From positions 1 through 28,470 of the IMG/VR virus record IMGVR_UViG_3300025141_000558: 28,470 bases of DNA; one strand, given 5' to 3'. This DNA is from a virus. Positions 9,147 through 16,763 of the stretch are shown one piece after another. The notes beneath the pieces were generated by a model that saw nothing but the letters and a program-made list of their open reading frames with translations, was not told the DNA's origin and did not search any database. Positions within the stretch are counted from its first letter, which is position 1. The number at the start of each line of letters is the position of its first letter. Both the position numbers and the translations under genes were made by a program.

Positions 9147-11864
9147 CTATCGAGAAGCTAGGAACGCTTCTCCTCCAACTATATCTACTACTTCACTAGA
9201 AAGTGTCCTACGATCTAGCTGCATATTAATGGTTAATTGGTAAGGTTTTTGTGCGGTGGGGCTGGGTGCGCCGGCTGTGCCTCGTGCTGAAGTGACGCCG
9301 GCCAATGCTGAGGCGCCCGTCGTGAGCATCTGGCTGGTGGCGCGGAGGCCGCCTTGGGCCCACTCGGGCAATTCGTCAATGGCATTGATGGCCATCTGTG
9401 CTAGCGCGGGGCCTAGAGAGGTGAAAGACGCCAGAATGCCGCCTACCATTGGGTCTCCTACGGCTTTCTGCATTTCGGACGAGGGGGAGCTAATTCCGAG
9501 CCAACTTTTTAGCTCAGTTATACCTGCGTCGATACCTTTCTTCCAAGAGGTAATTCCATTTTGAATCTTGTCTCCCATTGCCTCGAAACCAAATGCTTCG
9601 CCCATACTGTTCGCCAATTCTCTAATCTTATTGGGTACTTCCGTCTTCAGTGAATCCCAGGTGTCTAGGAATGCCTTTTGCCACCCCACCACTTTTTCAT
9701 GCATAATGTCAAATACTCCGCCTAGTGATTTAAGTGGGTTGAGAAGAACGCCGGCGGCGCCCCCAATATTGTCAAACAATCCAGGCATCATTACCAGAAT
9801 GTCTAGCAAAGAGGGGCTCCGTTTTTCGAGAACGGCATTCCTTATGCTCACCAAGCCCTCGAATACATTGACTATAGGCCGCACCACACCCCAAAGGGAC
9901 GTTGTGAGTCCCTCCCACGCTGCCTTCAGGTAATCCGTCGCCGTCGCCGTCTCTCCCATTGTCGTATAAACTTTGATCAGGGGCTTCAGAAAATCCCACA
10001 ACATTTCGAGGGGCTTGACTACCGTCCAATAGAGCGGGTTGGCGGCCATCAGGAATTCGAAGATGCCGAGCAATACTTGAAAGGAGGCCCCTATTATCTT
10101 CGACCACATGGCGATCGTTTTAGCAGCCTTGGAGATCTCCTCAAAGCCGGCGGCTACCTTCCCCAAAGAGTCCACGAAGTTCTTCATCATTTCGGGGAAA
10201 TTCTTTTTCTTGACCAGAGGTAGCAAAAGCCCATTTACTATTCTTTCGAGGCTATCTCGAATCTTGGCCACGCTATCTTCATTATTGATAAACTCATCCA
10301 TCACTTCTTTGATAACTTTCCCGAACTCCGAAAATGTGGGTGCCAAACTAGCCAGCGTATTTTTGAGAATATCCATCGTAGATTGCCAGCGCTGAGCATC
10401 TTTGCGGGCGGCTGCATATTCCTTGGAAGTCTTGCCAATGTTGCCGGCCAAGCCTTCCATATCACCAGACATCATTTGAGCTAGCTCACTTTCATCTTTA
10501 AAACCGAGCATTTCGGTAAACATCTTCTTCTGGTGATATCCCATCTCGTCAAAAGATAGGCCCGTCTGCATGATGGCTTTTCGGATAGATTTAAAACGTT
10601 TTGCGGGATCGGTCTCCATCATCATATCCATCGCATTTACAAAGTTTCCACCAAGAGCGGCGTTCAGCTTTCCTGTCATGGTCGCGGCGTCTTCAAAGGT
10701 ATCAAATTTGCCAGTAAGCTCTAGAACCTTGTTCAAATCCATACCGGTGATCTTGCTAATCATTGAAAGATCTTTGAACGCTTTAACCCCTTCCTTTCCG
10801 AATTGAGCCATTGAGCCGGCGGCATTAGCAAATTGGTTGGCTAGAGTGCCCACATCGACGCCTATATCCATAGCATGTGCGCGCATTTCAAGCATTACAT
10901 TGTCGGCATCGCTTAAGGAGACCCCAAGGCCCTTCACAGCGCCTTGGACGCCTTTGGCATAGTCCTTGGAGCTAACGCCTAATTCAGCGAGCACAGCGCC
11001 TGTTTTGGCCATCTGCTTCTGCTGGGCTGACGAAGCTTCTGTAAAAATCGTGGTTTCTCGATATAAGGCCGTGTATTGTTCCCGCATTTCTTCCATGCTG
11101 ACGCCGGTGGCTTGTAACTCTTTCCGGGCAATCGCCATTTGCTCGCCCATAGCGTAAGAAGCCCCTGTCATGCGCTGGAAGCCCACTGCGGCGTCTCGGG
11201 TCTCAACCGCAAGCTTAAAAATCCACTCAACAAGCTTCACTATCACCATGATTACAGCGATAATAATACCAATTCCCAAAGCAGCCGTCAGCATCTGCGC
11301 TGAGATGGCGCCGGCTTTGAGGGCTTTGTCGAGGCCTTTGGCGCCTTTCACAAAGTTCTGCATACCTTTAATGCCGCCACCGATCAGTTTGCCCATCGTG
11401 GACTGCCCTAAAATCATGCTGTTCATATTTTGAAGCATGTCAACACCCTGGCTTACCATTTGATCCCGCGTCTTAAGGCGATCTTTTTCTTTGGCCGCGA
11501 TGGCGTGTTGTTGTTCTAAAAACTCTGCCTCGGCCTCTGAAAGCTTTTCGTTGTTCCTCAGCCGGCGCTCTAACAACTTCACTCTTTCTTTGTCGATTTC
11601 CCGCAAATTCTCGGCAATTTCTTTCTCAGCCTGTTTCTTCATATATTCGGTGTCGGCTGTTTGTATGGCGTCCCACCGCAAGTTGTTCTCTTCCTCCAGC
11701 GCAGCAATACGGGCCTGAATAGCGCCTACGCGGCTTCCGTCATCGGGGTTCCCTCCGGCACCACCGCCACCAGGGGCACTACCGGGGCCGCCTCCTGATA
11801 TGGCTGCTACGGCTTCTTGAATGCCCTCTTTAATCGCTTTTTTTATATCATCATAGCCGGCCAC
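9147..11864 (-). CDS. Tail tape measure protein
   Basis: Protein of 905 aa that sets tail length and is ejected with the DNA. It begins at GTG 11864 with GAGGA six bases upstream. Residues 1-45 contain a Gly-rich linker; 46-135 form a highly charged coiled coil; a strongly hydrophobic stretch around 188-220 (ALGIGIIIAVIMVIVKLVEW) is followed by more amphipathic helices. A second hydrophobic region (IIGASFQVLLGIFEFLMAAN) precedes the C-terminal part. The Gly/Ala-rich character, long helices, hydrophobic segments and position between the gp51-like gene and the tube-cap gene are typical of tape measures. The T4 counterpart gp29 is shorter (about 590 aa), so a longer tail is expected (inference). 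The final 70 residues (NMQLDRRTLSSEVVDIVGG) resemble the C-termini of other tape measures. Confidence 0.9.
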   Translation of the reverse strand: MAGYDDIKKAIKEGIQEAVAAISGGGPGSAPGGGGAGGNPDDGSRVGAIQARIAALEEENNLRWDAIQTADTEYMKKQAEKEIAENLREIDKERVKLLERRLRNNEKLSEAEAEFLEQQHAIAAKEKDRLKTRDQMVSQGVDMLQNMNSMILGQSTMGKLIGGGIKGMQNFVKGAKGLDKALKAGAISAQMLTAALGIGIIIAVIMVIVKLVEWIFKLAVETRDAAVGFQRMTGASYAMGEQMAIARKELQATGVSMEEMREQYTALYRETTIFTEASSAQQKQMAKTGAVLAELGVSSKDYAKGVQGAVKGLGVSLSDADNVMLEMRAHAMDIGVDVGTLANQFANAAGSMAQFGKEGVKAFKDLSMISKITGMDLNKVLELTGKFDTFEDAATMTGKLNAALGGNFVNAMDMMMETDPAKRFKSIRKAIMQTGLSFDEMGYHQKKMFTEMLGFKDESELAQMMSGDMEGLAGNIGKTSKEYAAARKDAQRWQSTMDILKNTLASLAPTFSEFGKVIKEVMDEFINNEDSVAKIRDSLERIVNGLLLPLVKKKNFPEMMKNFVDSLGKVAAGFEEISKAAKTIAMWSKIIGASFQVLLGIFEFLMAANPLYWTVVKPLEMLWDFLKPLIKVYTTMGETATATDYLKAAWEGLTTSLWGVVRPIVNVFEGLVSIRNAVLEKRSPSLLDILVMMPGLFDNIGGAAGVLLNPLKSLGGVFDIMHEKVVGWQKAFLDTWDSLKTEVPNKIRELANSMGEAFGFEAMGDKIQNGITSWKKGIDAGITELKSWLGISSPSSEMQKAVGDPMVGGILASFTSLGPALAQMAINAIDELPEWAQGGLRATSQMLTTGASALAGVTSARGTAGAPSPTAQKPYQLTINMQLDRRTLSSEVVDIVGGEAFLASR

Positions 11865-11919: not shown

Positions 11920-12168
11920 CTATTCAGTTTTGCCAAATTGTCTCCGCATTTGAGGGGGAGGCGTCGGTTGATTATTGGACGTTAGTACCTGATTGCTCGA
12001 ACTACTGCCACCAGAACTCTTATTCATGGCGGCTTTTTCGTCCTCTAATTGGCGAATCAATCGATCTACAAACCACTGTCGTAGACCCACAGGCAAATTA
12101 TAAGCCTCGGAAAATGACCAGCTTCCTGCATATTTTAGGAAGAAGAACTGCTCATAGACCCCTTCCAT
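11920..12168 (-). CDS. Small gp51-like protein/second tail-assembly chaperone
   Basis: Protein of 82 aa from ATG 12168. The core EQFFFLKYAGSWSFSEAYNLPVGLRQWFVDRLIRQ resembles small T4-type gp51 proteins (pattern FYYLKxY..S..EA..LPV..R.W...R). In T4, gp51 promotes hub assembly and its gene is next to gene 26, as here. The C-terminal 35 residues are Ser/Asn/Pro/Gln-rich and likely disordered. There is no good Shine-Dalgarno; the upstream stop lies four bases before the ATG, and the frame is open back to the T-run at 12187-12193. It may therefore be made by termination-reinitiation or as a frameshift fusion to the upstream protein. The location just before the tape measure is the classic site of tail-assembly chaperones. 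Confidence 0.7.
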   Translation of the reverse strand: MEGVYEQFFFLKYAGSWSFSEAYNLPVGLRQWFVDRLIRQLEDEKAAMNKSSGGSSSSNQVLTSNNQPTPPPQMRRQFGKTE

Positions 12169-12172
12169 ATAC

Positions 12173-13033
12173 TCATCGGTCAGGCCAAAAAAACTCCGCC
12201 CCTAGCGGAACCTCCATGTCAGCACTATAATCGCACTCGTCGCATTCAAAATTTTGACTTAAATCGACGTTTGGTGCAGCTGCTTTGTACGCTAGACGCA
12301 AATGGCGAGCATCCTTGGACGGAATGTTACCAACTACGTAATTTAACGCTTCTGGATCAGTGTTGTCGTTTGCTGCAACCAAAATGCTTTTTAGCTGACG
12401 CGTCACCAGAGATTCTGGCTTTTTGGATTTCTTTTCGCGCTCGATGGCTTTGGCCACTCGATTTTCATCATATCCATCTAAAAGCCTAAATGTGATGTCC
12501 AACTTAGTTTGAGGAAGCTGTACATTAAAAGTTCCATCTCCATTATATTTAACATCCATGGACTCAAGATCCTCGCCATGATAAATGAGGGCCTCATTTA
12601 GGTCAAAAGCATAATCTTGAACTTCTCCGCAACCGGGGCATGAGGTCTTTGTGACATATTCAGCACCGTAGCCCGCAACCCGGGTAGCAATGATAATAGC
12701 ATTTCTATCACCCACCAACAGAGAGTCGGGGTTAATGCTCTTATCCACAATTAAGTTTTTAATAACGCGATCAAGGGCAACGCCCTTCTTAAGAAGGGTT
12801 CTGGATGTAAGAATATCCTCTTCTCTCGCAGTCATCTGCTTAATTTCGATATTTCCTTCATTATGTAGGGGATGTCCTTCTGGGTAATATTTACCCTCTG
12901 AAGGAAGCTCTACAAACTCGGTAGGAACTACGAAGGAGAAAGTCGCGCCGCCTGTATCGCTGTTCATCATCTGTTGTACAGGGGGGTTTGAGTTGGACTT
13001 TTGAGAACCTACACGATCTTTATTTCGTGACAA
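12173..13033 (-). CDS. gp26-like baseplate/tail-assembly protein with zinc ribbon
   Basis: Protein of 286 aa matching the T4 gp26-type baseplate family: PTEFVELPSEGKYYPEGHPL (37-56), then IEIKQMTAREEDILTSRTLL (62-81) and INPDSLLVGDRNAIIIATR (100-118). Two CxxC knuckles, Cys132/Cys135 and Cys264/Cys267, could form one zinc ribbon. The first 30 residues are polar and variable. The start is TTG at 13033: AGAGGTG lies four bases upstream and no ATG fits as well before the conserved part. It follows the tail tube gene and precedes the gp51-like gene and tape measure, so it occupies the first chaperone position of other contractile phages. Its 3' end contains a seven-T run, nine codon positions before the stop at most, that could allow a frameshift into the next gene. 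T4 gp26 is described as a hub component; a chaperone role here is inferred from order. Confidence 0.75.
   Translation of the reverse strand: MSRNKDRVGSQKSNSNPPVQQMMNSDTGGATFSFVVPTEFVELPSEGKYYPEGHPLHNEGNIEIKQMTAREEDILTSRTLLKKGVALDRVIKNLIVDKSINPDSLLVGDRNAIIIATRVAGYGAEYVTKTSCPGCGEVQDYAFDLNEALIYHGEDLESMDVKYNGDGTFNVQLPQTKLDITFRLLDGYDENRVAKAIEREKKSKKPESLVTRQLKSILVAANDNTDPEALNYVVGNIPSKDARHLRLAYKAAAPNVDLSQNFECDECDYSADMEVPLGAEFFWPDR
12187..12193 (-). other. Candidate slippery T7 run at the gp26-like/gp51-like junction
   Basis: Coding strand GAG TTT TTT TGG, four codons before the zero-frame stop. The +1 (equivalent to -2) frame is open from here straight into the gp51-like protein, adding the residues GLTDEY before its first Met. 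The -1 frame meets TGA almost at once. A +1 or -2 slip would give a fusion of about 370 aa, as in tail-assembly chaperone pairs of many tailed phages. There is no experimental support. Confidence 0.4.
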
Positions 13034-13058: not shown

Positions 13059-13658
13059 TTAGCTTGATCTAACGCCGAAGAATTCATTTCCACCACTGGG
13101 GCCGGCGGACTTACCCTGTGGAGTTTCGATGCGGGCCCAATCGTAACGCAGCTTCACCGTCAATTCGGTAAGCTCGTTAGAACCATACTCAAGGCTTCCA
13201 TAGTTGACTTCAGTAACGAAGCCGTTCCAAAGGGTCCATTGCTCCAGCGGGTTACCATCGGCATCAATCTGAGTGATGATAACGGTACCGAGAGCGCCGG
13301 CAGACTTGGCCTTAGACATGGTGGTCATGCTTTCATTGGTAGCATCTGTGGGAGGCTTATAGCCGGAGGCAGTCACGATATCGGAAAGTGTCGCTGCCAC
13401 GTCCGGATCGGCGGGGTCAACAAGGGTACAGTTAACTTCGTTCCACGTCACGGAGCCCGGATACCAGAAAGTATGGTTCAGATACTTATGATCTTGAGAC
13501 TCGATTGTAAAGCTGGGCTTATCGCATGTTTTTGCATACCACAGAACCGGCCCACCCTGTGCTGCTTTTACTCCCGTGAAAGATACCGTAAACCTAAACT
13601 TGCGCTTAGGATCTTTTAAGGTGGCGTTCTCCCCGAAATTTGTTGACCAAAATGCCAT
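13059..13658 (-). CDS. Tail tube protein (gp19-like)
   Basis: Protein of 199 aa forming the inner tail tube through which DNA passes. It starts FWSTNFG near the N-terminus and contains KRKFRFTVSFTG, KPSFTIESQDHKYLNHTFWYPG, WNEVNCTLVDPADPDVA and LEQWTLWNGFVTEVNYG followed by ELTVKLRYDWARIE, the succession of strands known from T4 gp19 and its relatives. T4 gp19 is 163 aa, so this version has an extra loop (around residues 95-120) and a Gly-rich tail. GGGAG lies upstream of ATG 13658. Adjacent to the sheath gene, in the usual sheath-tube order. Confidence 0.9.
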   Translation of the reverse strand: MAFWSTNFGENATLKDPKRKFRFTVSFTGVKAAQGGPVLWYAKTCDKPSFTIESQDHKYLNHTFWYPGSVTWNEVNCTLVDPADPDVAATLSDIVTASGYKPPTDATNESMTTMSKAKSAGALGTVIITQIDADGNPLEQWTLWNGFVTEVNYGSLEYGSNELTELTVKLRYDWARIETPQGKSAGPSGGNEFFGVRSS

Positions 13659-13706: not shown

Positions 13707-16700
13707 TTAGTCATCAAATGATGCGCCAGTGCGAGCGACGACGAAGTCAATTGCGATGAATTCAATCGAACGGGCCGGCTTAATCATAATCTTAGCGTAC
13801 AAAATGTTCTGATCAATCAAGTCAGGCGTGGTTGTAGTCTCATCAAGGACCAATCGATAGTCAGTAATACCATACTTAACCATCACGTTTGCAAGGAACG
13901 GCTCAACCAGCGACTTGAATCTATCCCAAGTTGCTTGAACGTTCTGTTCGAAGAGAATCTGAGCGGCGATGATGGAAATCTGCTTCTTGAGGAAGATTAC
14001 CAGTCGTCTCACGTTAATTCTGTCGAGCGCAGAAGCTCTTTCTTGAAGCGTCTTCTGTCCGAAGACCACGATTCCCGTAGAAGGGAAGGAGGCAATCGGG
14101 TTAATTCGCGCTTCGTATAGTAAATCTCTTTCTTTGGAGGTAAGGCGTTCCGTTACATTTACAATCGGAATGCCTGCTGCTCCGTCTGTTAGGCCACCGC
14201 GGTTAAAGCCTGCCGGAGCAAACCATAGCGCGCTCTTCGCCTGAGAACTAGCCAGCACACCCATCATTGCCACGCTGGGCGGAATCCAGAGAAGGCGACC
14301 TGTTCCTTCGTCTCGGGTTTGGACCCAAGGATAGAAGGTGCAGCCGTAGCTGGAGTCAATCCGACGATTGCGCAAGTTGTTGGCAGCCTGAGTCGGCGTT
14401 GTACCAATACGATTTGCTTTGTCGGCTTTATAGGCTTCCTGCGTGGGGATATATACATCCGGCAGATCAATCAAGGCTAGCGAATCTGCGCGGGCTTCGC
14501 ACAGGGCAACCATGTGATCGGTAAGGGAGGTATTCGTAATTCCCGGCACTGCCAAGAGGTTCATATCTACCACTTCCGGATCAGCCACAGTGTCAAGTCC
14601 GCGCTTAATGGTGTGGTACTCATAGCTGCTGTTTTCGGTAGCCGTCGCTCCGATTCCCCCGTTATAGGTCGGGTCGGGCTTGGTGATATCCCAGCCATCG
14701 AACGCGCCAGCTAGCGGAATGGTAAAGCGGTTGTAATCAGCATCTAATAGATCCTTCCAAGACGTTGAGCCATAACTCGTACCCGCTTGGCGGGAGCCTG
14801 AAAGGTAGTAGAAGCCGGCCGATTGGACAGAGCCCGAAACAACATCGTCCAAGGAGAAGACATATGAATAGGCGTCTACACCAGTGGCACTGGGCTGATC
14901 GCTGGCGATTCCGCCGTACAAGAGGCGGTGGAAGTCGGCCACACTGGCATCAGAAATCGTGCTTCCGCTTGCGCGGGTGGTGGACATTCCAAAGTAAGCT
15001 TCTGTAGGGTTGGATGTGGCGCCGGCAGATGCAGACCTTCTAAGTCGAACTTGAGGGAACTTCATCTTAATTCGTGCATATTCGCCCGAGCCCGTAAGAA
15101 GGCCTAGTCGGGTGTCGCCAGGGAGCGAGCATGTCATGAATGTGGCTGGGGCGCCCCATAGTTGACTTAAGTTGCTGCCCACAAACGTGGCCGGTAGACC
15201 CCATCCGCTGGCGCCGAGGGCGCTCTCCGGCGATCCTGCACCGATCCCCGTTGTCACCTGATTTACACCTGGGGTCACCCCGGGGACTGCGGATGCGGTG
15301 ACGGATACCACCATATCGAGATCCTTGAACTTGGGTGGCCCAAAGTAACCAAAGGGGAGCAATTCGGGATCTGTAGCACCGGCGTCAACGTCGGCGTTGG
15401 TTTGCACGTATATATACTTGGATTGGTTATTGTACTCGCCATAAGTCCTAAGACGCTTCTGCGTGGAATCCCACACAGTATAGCGGTCCCCGATCTTCCG
15501 ACCAATAAAGTTGGGAGAAGAAGGATCCAAAGTGCACTTGTCAAATCGTTCTAGAACCTGTACTGCGTTATCTGTGTCGTGTAGAGCACGAACAAGAACA
15601 GTGAAGGTACCGTAGCCCGTTAGGGAATTGGTGGACTGCCTAACCTGTTCGATTGAAATCTTGGCGTTCTTTTGTAGCCACTCTCCTTGGCCGCGGCCAA
15701 CGAAGCGGAAAAGCTTTTGCATGTTCTGCGGGTAATAGTTTGAGTAAACCCCTGTATCCTGAGAGATAATCCATCCAGAGTTGGCCTCCACAGAAGCTTG
15801 TGACTTCATGTTCTGAGGGCCGCGGGTGAGGGTACCGCTGAGGGCGACAGGCCACACCCAAGCTACAGTGTTAACGGTGCTGCCAATAAGCCCTTCGTCT
15901 CGTAGTTGCTGCTCGTAGCTCTCGCCTAACCAGTAATCTTTTTTTACTCCCTCTGGATAGAAGGTTCCTGAGCTGATTAGCTGCGGGTTAGTGTTGATCT
16001 TTCTGCGAATAAAGTGTTCTGAGGAATCATCGAAGTTAAACTTAACAGTGTCATCATTGGTTTGGGTTGCAATTCGAAGCGTATACGTTCCGCCACTTCC
16101 CTTATTAATAAGTGCTCCGATACTGGCGGTGGTCAAAGTGGAATCGTCGACATTGACGATACCAGACGTACGCTTGGCGCCACCAAAAATGCTTCCGGAA
16201 AGAAGCGGAGCACCAGATTCTGTGTAAATGACTGCCGCAAGACTTGCGGTAAGATCAGTTGGGTTGGTATGGGAGGGTGTGCCGGCCACACTGCTGGACT
16301 TGGCTACCCAAATGCCCCAGGCGCCACCAGTTTTGGAGGCATTTCCAGTCGTGCCGGGTGATGCATCTGGACCGATCCCAGCATTAAGCTCGGTCTTCCA
16401 ACCTGCGCCGGCGGCACCGCCAATGGCTGCCCCAGCGGTGGTGTTTTGGCCCAGAAGGCGCACGAAAGTGAGAGGACCCACGTTTGCTCTCAAGAAGGCC
16501 CGGGCCGCATATAGGCCATACATGGGCGACTTGAGGTTTCCGTCGCGATATACGTCGCTGCCGGCTCCTCCCGGTACCGTTTCGCCAAACATTTCCACAA
16601 ATTGAGAGTAAGACTCAACTTTGATGGGATGCATTGCAATCCCCTTGGTGGCGCGCCCAATAATAACAGGGCCGATATCCTCGGCTTTCTTGGGCATAAA

Positions 16701-16763
16701 GGAGTTATCAATTTCATTGATGAAAACTCCAGGAGATACAAACTTAAAATTCTTTACTGACAT
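13707..16763 (-). CDS. Contractile tail sheath protein (gp18-like), oversized
   Basis: Protein of 1018 aa that forms the contractile sheath. The N-terminus SPGVFINEIDNSF (10-22) and GPVIIGRATKG are the hallmark start of sheath proteins. The last 200 residues are the conserved core: RLLWIPPSVAMMGVLA, ALWFAPAGFNRGG, RINPIASFPSTGIVVFGQKT, RINVRRLVIFLKKQI and PARSIEFIAIDFVV. T4 gp18 is 659 aa; the extra length lies between about residues 110 and 760, which is Ser/Gly/Thr-rich and poorly conserved by eye and should correspond to enlarged surface protrusion domains. The ACTATTTA motif lies 51 nt upstream; GGGAG precedes the ATG. The stop is 48 nt before the tube gene. Identity is very sure; the role of the extra mass is inference. 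Confidence 0.95.
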   Translation of the reverse strand: MSVKNFKFVSPGVFINEIDNSFMPKKAEDIGPVIIGRATKGIAMHPIKVESYSQFVEMFGETVPGGAGSDVYRDGNLKSPMYGLYAARAFLRANVGPLTFVRLLGQNTTAGAAIGGAAGAGWKTELNAGIGPDASPGTTGNASKTGGAWGIWVAKSSSVAGTPSHTNPTDLTASLAAVIYTESGAPLLSGSIFGGAKRTSGIVNVDDSTLTTASIGALINKGSGGTYTLRIATQTNDDTVKFNFDDSSEHFIRRKINTNPQLISSGTFYPEGVKKDYWLGESYEQQLRDEGLIGSTVNTVAWVWPVALSGTLTRGPQNMKSQASVEANSGWIISQDTGVYSNYYPQNMQKLFRFVGRGQGEWLQKNAKISIEQVRQSTNSLTGYGTFTVLVRALHDTDNAVQVLERFDKCTLDPSSPNFIGRKIGDRYTVWDSTQKRLRTYGEYNNQSKYIYVQTNADVDAGATDPELLPFGYFGPPKFKDLDMVVSVTASAVPGVTPGVNQVTTGIGAGSPESALGASGWGLPATFVGSNLSQLWGAPATFMTCSLPGDTRLGLLTGSGEYARIKMKFPQVRLRRSASAGATSNPTEAYFGMSTTRASGSTISDASVADFHRLLYGGIASDQPSATGVDAYSYVFSLDDVVSGSVQSAGFYYLSGSRQAGTSYGSTSWKDLLDADYNRFTIPLAGAFDGWDITKPDPTYNGGIGATATENSSYEYHTIKRGLDTVADPEVVDMNLLAVPGITNTSLTDHMVALCEARADSLALIDLPDVYIPTQEAYKADKANRIGTTPTQAANNLRNRRIDSSYGCTFYPWVQTRDEGTGRLLWIPPSVAMMGVLASSQAKSALWFAPAGFNRGGLTDGAAGIPIVNVTERLTSKERDLLYEARINPIASFPSTGIVVFGQKTLQERASALDRINVRRLVIFLKKQISIIAAQILFEQNVQATWDRFKSLVEPFLANVMVKYGITDYRLVLDETTTTPDLIDQNILYAKIMIKPARSIEFIAIDFVVARTGASFDD

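Follow-up and report, generated by a model that had tools for sequence, protein, structure and literature searches.

A +1 frameshift near the end of a T4 gp26-family gene is the most probable source of two tail chaperones, a short form and a rarer long fusion, in the viral sequence analysed here; judged from sequence, we give this reading a probability of about 0.92. The sequence, hereafter called the window, is a whole IMG/VR record of 28,470 bases. Its minus strand contains a myovirus tail operon with genes for the sheath and tube, the gp26-family gene, a short open reading frame (ORF), and a tape-measure-like gene (Table 1). The analysis shows the geometry of the frames and how far it is conserved, that both frames are under selection, the synteny, the similarity of fold, and homologues with the two parts in one frame; we infer that ribosomes really shift at this junction, how efficiently they do so, which codon slips, and how the two forms divide their labour. 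One gene appears to be programmed to yield a short and a long tail chaperone in the window and in at least 194 related sequences.

Table 1. Features of the tail operon and of the proposed shift site in the window.
Feature	Position	Strand	Basis
Tail sheath gene	13707..16763	-	PF17482 and PF04984 above cut-off
Tail tube gene, directly upstream of the gp26-family gene	13059..13658	-	phrog_4542 tail tube, E 1.2e-26
T4 gp26-family protein, 286 aa, predicted short product, read as tail assembly chaperone (TAC-N)	12173..13033	-	PF12322 T4_baseplate
Candidate upstream stimulator, clade-specific, TGGAGGTTCCGCTAGGGGCGGAG	12194..12216	-	Synonymous constraint, codon counts, co-occurrence of parts
Putative shift site: T7 run, with P-site TTT 12190-12188, then T 12187	12187..12193	-	Sequence
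Overlap of zero and +1 frames, 29 nt	12173..12201	-
+1 open frame, including stop	11920..12201	-	Open-frame check; C-domain HMM
ATG start of an 82-aa ORF if called separately	12166..12168	-	ORF from ATG 12168 to 11920
Tape-measure-like gene, 905 aa, directly downstream	9147..11864	-	Position and length

Geometry and gene order of the junction

The gp26-family protein matched PF12322 with 56.7 bits (cut-off, 24.5) over residues 41-283 and the baseplate hub family phrog_150 with an E value of 1.9e-17. Together with the short ORF, its gene sits between the tail tube and tape measure genes, which is the position of a locus of the lambda G/GT kind. No match was found in Pfam or PHROG for the tape-measure-like gene; the gene at the equivalent place is annotated as tape measure in three relatives (L002, L005, and L009).

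In the zero frame, the gp26-family gene ends with GAG TTT TTT TGG CCT GAC CGA TGA. GAG occupies 12196-12194, the two TTT codons 12193-12191 and 12190-12188, TGG 12187-12185, and the TGA stop 12175-12173. The original prediction had noticed a T7 run four codons ahead of this first stop, and its positions were confirmed on the minus (coding) strand. By itself, the run is unremarkable (three runs of at least seven on the minus strand of the window). The downstream frame had been predicted to be open from just before the run into the next ORF; it indeed opens past a TAG at 12204-12202 and is stop-free down to the stop codon at 11922-11920. The C-terminal part of the long form extends from GGC at 12186 to 11923 (88 codons), and the predicted fusion has 370 residues with EFFGLTDEYMEGVYEQ across the junction, in which the proposed junction peptide FFGLTDEY is correct.

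In the proposed mechanism, most ribosomes would read gp26 through to TGA and release the short form, which consists of the N-domain. In a fraction of ribosomes, with TTT in the P site and TGG waiting in the A site, the P-site tRNA-Phe would slip one base forward onto the overlapping TTT at 12189-12187. GGC (12186-12184) would be read next, and +1 translation would add a C-terminal domain of approximately 85 residues to give a fusion of approximately 370 aa. If lambda gpG/gpGT is a guide, the tape measure protein is probably coated by the short form, and the tail tube protein is probably brought in by the long form, which is the rarer of the two.

Conservation of the putative shift site and competing explanations

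Near relatives were defined as the 80 nearest viral contigs, which are 42-63% identical (81 sequences including the window). Alignment queries were used for the homologue scans, and single-protein queries yielded almost nothing: the gp26 proteins of the window and RAS14 retrieved no sequence, and that of SP-15 retrieved only itself. For a broader survey, two more viral scans and one genome scan were carried out, and a C-domain HMM was iterated over the three frames.

In all 80 nearest relatives the two frames overlap and the +1 frame is open; thus, it is the conservation, and not the T7 run itself, that goes beyond chance. An open +1 frame likewise leads past the gp26 stop region into the ORF that follows in Flavobacterium phage immuto, Microcystis phage Mel-JY01, Bacillus phage SP-15, Rhodothermus phage RM378, Streptococcus phage GXN1, Listeria phage LIS04, Streptomyces phages BRock and LuckySocke, and the uncultured LR756508. 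The junction core is TTTTTTTGGCCT in 72 of the 81 near relatives (window included), and the variants TTTCTTTGG, TTCTTTTGG, and TGGTCT/TGGACT keep YTT.T. Of 201 loci in the broader survey (E<1e-3), 195 had the C-domain in the +1 frame relative to gp26, 6 had it in -1, and none had it in-frame; this ratio is not a census as the survey was seeded mostly from +1 phages, and the counts are not independent events as its members are related. The C-domain of Paride (L095) was likewise -1, at an E value of 0.003. RM378 (L006) was left out of the count because the HMM did not recognise its downstream domain, although TTT TTT TGG and the +1 overlap are present. In every case tested (202/202), the shifted frame is stop-free from the Phe-Phe codons to the domain. 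An overlapping second ORF and a conserved shift site, as in a locus of the lambda G/GT kind, therefore recur across the relatives, and the comparative data strongly support the predicted joining of the two ORFs by frameshift.

The slip codon was classified in 185 distinct +1 loci as TTT.T (155), TTT.C (19), CTT.T (7), or none (4). The conserved unit is thus a Phe or Leu codon, TTT or CTT, followed by T or C (181/185), and in all 181 loci the P-site tRNA can re-pair after a +1 slip, Phe on UUU or UUC and Leu from CUU to UUU. The natural variants TTT.T, CTT.T, and TTT.C fit +1 re-pairing in the P site, and not a -2 shift, reinitiation, or RNA polymerase slippage. When the junction is compared across relatives, the overlap and open +1 frame are kept and the seven-T run is not the conserved unit. 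The original prediction named relatives that lose the run and keep both proteins as the contrary case. Such relatives occur; they are not counted against frameshifting because their slip codon survives without the run or their frame has switched to -1 (L134/L179). The A-site codon is TGG in the window and most relatives, and UGG, UAC, UUC, or CGN overall. Points against the +1 reading are that the A-site TGG is a sense codon, stimulators are not consistent across clades, and four distinct loci lack TTT.Y. In these four (L198, L200, L204, and L205), the C-domain is in the +1 frame and gp26 ends with TTA TTT/TTC AAT CCC AGT; the shift may have moved elsewhere, perhaps to CCC.A.

If the two ORFs were separate genes, the downstream one would be translated from the ATG at 12168 by termination-reinitiation just past the gp26 TGA. 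This ATG is the first of the +1 frame in the window, lies only 4 nt beyond the stop, and is kept at +1 codon 6 in 44 of the 81 near relatives including the window. However, the position is not conserved as a start, its codon varying among M/I/N/S/T/A/Q and the like, and between the slip site and the domain core there is no ATG in 116 and no ATG, GTG, or TTG in 76 of 186 distinct +1 junctions. As originally remarked, the downstream ORF is not preceded by a clear Shine-Dalgarno, here sought in GGCCTGACCGATGAGTAT, the sequence ahead of the ATG. Moreover, conservation in the +1 frame, with third-position changes that are synonymous, extends to residues ahead of the ATG and even to some ahead of the zero-frame stop. 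Codon-position entropy, calculated per position over 80 loci in +1 numbering, was 0.32/1.38/0.60 just upstream of the slip site, where the variable base is the zero-frame third position, 0.43/0.42/1.13 in the six codons that start at the slip site and end ahead of the ATG, and 0.63/0.37/1.35 past the ATG position. Variability thus switches frame at the T run, six codons ahead of the ATG position, which indicates that the zero frame is under selection as far as the run and the +1 frame from there onward. We consider two separate genes very unlikely. Given the ATG in those 44 sequences, a second, internally initiated product may be made besides the fusion.

The original prediction allowed a shift of +1 or -2, and the +1 alternative is favoured. 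A -2 shift at the run would give a product one residue longer (EFFFGL instead of EFFGL). TTT TTT T also lets the P-site TTT re-pair two bases back, and the -2 codon is TTT in 160 loci; yet -2 re-pairing is mismatched in 21 of the 181 loci with a slip codon. It would put tRNA-Phe on TCT, AGT, TGT, ACT, or CTT in 14 distinct loci and tRNA-Leu(CUU) on TTC in 7, all of which pair after a +1 slip, and it fails in TTC TTT CGT, CTG TTT CGC, and GCT TTT TGG. The -2 shift is accordingly held to be less probable still than separate genes. RNA polymerase slippage on the T7 run, with mixed mRNAs as the result, has a very small probability: there is a homopolymer at the shift site, but seven bases is a short run for such slippage, and several relatives without the run keep the geometry (TTC TTT CGT, CTG TTT CGC, and TTT CTT TGG). 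A sequencing or assembly error that split one gene could be suspected, since the frame is broken by a single base at a homopolymer and the record comes from a virus database; it is refuted by recurrence of the same break at the same codons in approximately 190 other contigs and in the isolate genomes L002, L004, L005, L006, L008, L009, L092, and L093.

As for signals that could assist a +1 shift, synonymous sites of gp26 vary at the level expected from codon usage and are constrained only in the last 25 nt or so before the slip site. The constraint starts eight codons before the second slip-site Phe (GAG 66/66, CCG 63/80, GAC 59/61, and TTT 78/80 twice), and the codon before Asp/Glu ends in G in 56/80 relatives versus 11.5 expected. 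All three parts, GGAGG, CCG, and CGG, are present in 49/80, and all three are missing in 10/80. This pattern marks the 23-nt upstream sequence as a putative cis element of the window's clade, and it may stimulate the shift there; the other clades lack it. In the window (12194-12216) and 49/80 relatives, GGAGG stands approximately 20 nt ahead of the shift codon and is accompanied by conserved CCG and CGGAC; this spacing is unlike that of known frameshift Shine-Dalgarno elements. The window also has GGAG followed by TTT ahead of the shift codon, and GGA is found near there in 55/80 members of the clade and is absent in other clades; beyond the window's clade, no Shine-Dalgarno rule like that of prfB holds. 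Downstream RNA folding was unremarkable (mean z -0.3 to -1.0) with no consistent stability, and RNAalifold found no base pairs. An attractive candidate hairpin, CCGY...GCGG, immediately 5' of the shift site covaried no more than shuffles did; it is unsupported and no more than a possibility.

Relation to known frameshift systems

Tail chaperone frameshifts were reportedly surveyed by Xu, Hendrix and Duda in 2004. Shifts of -1, -2, or +1 are known in tail chaperones, and the G-T frameshift is described as conserved among long-tailed phages "except T4" (PMC5009743). In the lambda model, the short form acts on the tape measure and the long form recruits the tube protein (PMC5009743). The window resembles lambda gpG/gpGT in its overlapping ORFs between tube and tape measure, its predicted short and long chaperones, and a chaperone-like predicted fold. 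It differs in the less usual +1 direction rather than -1, the U-rich TTT.T/TTT.C/CTT.T site, and an N-domain of the T4 gp26 family with zinc-ribbon-like cysteines.

In the +1 shift of RF2 (prfB), the peptidyl-tRNA slips +1 at CUU_U, or at UUU_U in few species (PMC5009743). A P-site CUU or UUU followed by U is likewise found here, as TTT.T in the window and as TTT.T (155) or CTT.T (7) among the 185 loci. Unlike RF2, the A site holds a sense codon instead of UGA, and no Shine-Dalgarno is conserved 3 nt upstream across clades. The tail chaperone of Vandenendeviridae/Andersonviridae uses a -1 frameshift at GTTTTT (PMC12846349), in contrast to the +1 direction here. The tail frameshift of the haloarchaeal myovirus HSTV-2 is "very likely +1" (PMC5009743). 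The window is likened to it on direction and on its myovirus tail chaperone locus.

To go by its title, a 2022 paper of Vladimirov argues for a different mechanism in T4-like phages. Vladimirov et al. 2022 is the source that PMC12846349 gives for -1 signals of the poly-T kind in the TAC-N genes of these phages; some of the findings on -1 shifts are therefore probably known already. In the literature searched, no report of a +1 frameshift in the T4-gp26 family was found, which is not proof of absence. Tail chaperone frameshifting is thus known; what appears to be new is the +1 direction, in the T4-gp26 family, with switches of direction. None of the annotated relatives inspected has the two ORFs joined; their C-domain is either overlooked or annotated from a late start, as a truncated hypothetical protein, and this recurring annotation error is corrected here.

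Protein domains and proposed changes of decoding route

An AlphaFold2 model of the gp26 N-domain alone, based on 58 sequences, had a pLDDT of 90.6 and a pTM of 0.84. Its best PDB match was 2OB9, the HK97 tail assembly chaperone (Z 6.0), followed by 3KLU (Z 5.7), which is YqbN and which we take to be a prophage tail chaperone. Both matches cover approximately 80 residues, and a Z below 8 is not decisive; the Foldseek E was 0.58. The structural scores are modest, but the top two matches are of the expected kind and the gene order fits, which is consistent with gp26 as a tail chaperone.

T4 gp26 and gp51 are hub assembly chaperones (PMC3004832). Their genes, 26 and 51, both match PF12322 above the cut-off, and the C-domain is colinear with the gp51 C-terminus (hhalign probability 70%, E 4e-5; HMM E 1.7e-5 to 0.014 with a 4-sequence set). 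On this alignment, T4 gp51 would be a gp26 paralogue with the C-terminal domain in a single frame. The description of the small ORF as gp51-like therefore holds for the C-terminal 50 or so residues of gp51; the rest of gp51 is unmatched, and the small ORF alone is not gp51. The two systems are alike in that gp26 corresponds to the N-domain and gp51 probably to the N-domain plus C-domain. They differ in that T4 has its two forms from two divergent genes and the window would have them from one gene by frameshift.

In Atu_ph07, RAS14, Paride, LR756511, and P-SSM2, the C-domain is in the -1 frame, and the same Phe-Phe codons read T TTT TTY. In cyanophage P-SSM2 (L224, 6519-7208), gp26 ends with AGT TTT TTC GTA TAA and the C-domain is -1. 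It seems that T4-like cyanophages shift by -1 at this same pair of Phe codons. Two loci, L134 and L179, are nested in the +1 clade (SH-aLRT 97); TTC TTC TGG replaces TTT TTT TGG, the C-domain is in the -1 frame, and the pair is, as read from these codons, a natural reversal of shift direction. On the tree, the -1 label requires at least three changes on well-supported branches, with caution for long branches.

On balance, we favour a history in which the two-form output was kept as the route changed: +1 at UUU.U/UUU.C/CUU.U in the window and many myovirus lineages, -1 at U_UUU_UUY in P-SSM2, Atu_ph07, Paride, RAS14, and LR756511, the reversal in L134/L179, duplication in T4, and in-frame fusion in loci of the injection-system kind. 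The frameshift would be ancestral and lost in T4, and the +1 shift would operate with a sense codon in the A site and no conserved stimulator. By comparison across relatives, the T4 gp26 family itself bears the shift site in many lineages; hence, the two genes of T4 look derived. The natural series of +1, -1, duplication, and fusion lends itself to testing how the direction of recoding evolves while the protein motif stays fixed.

Against Pfam, nothing exceeded the cut-off for the C-domain; the only match was a weak one to DUF6760 (best 0.0043; 0.16 for the window). A search for DUF6760 in four MAGs found nothing, and a wider Bacteroidota search gave three loci. In two of them, L232 and L233 (859-1623), the gp26-like part, SFF, and the C-domain lie in one 255-aa ORF, which is hit by Pfam DUF6760 as well as by the C-domain HMM and is preceded by an injection-system-like tube gene. 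This fusion suggests that DUF6760 is a tail chaperone C-domain. In L231 (reverse complement 1115-1486 and 1471-1665), DUF6760 is a separate -1 ORF without an ATG, which overlaps the upstream gene by approximately 16 nt at TCG GGG GAA TCA TAG; this arrangement may reflect -1 frameshifting in a contractile injection system of bacteria.
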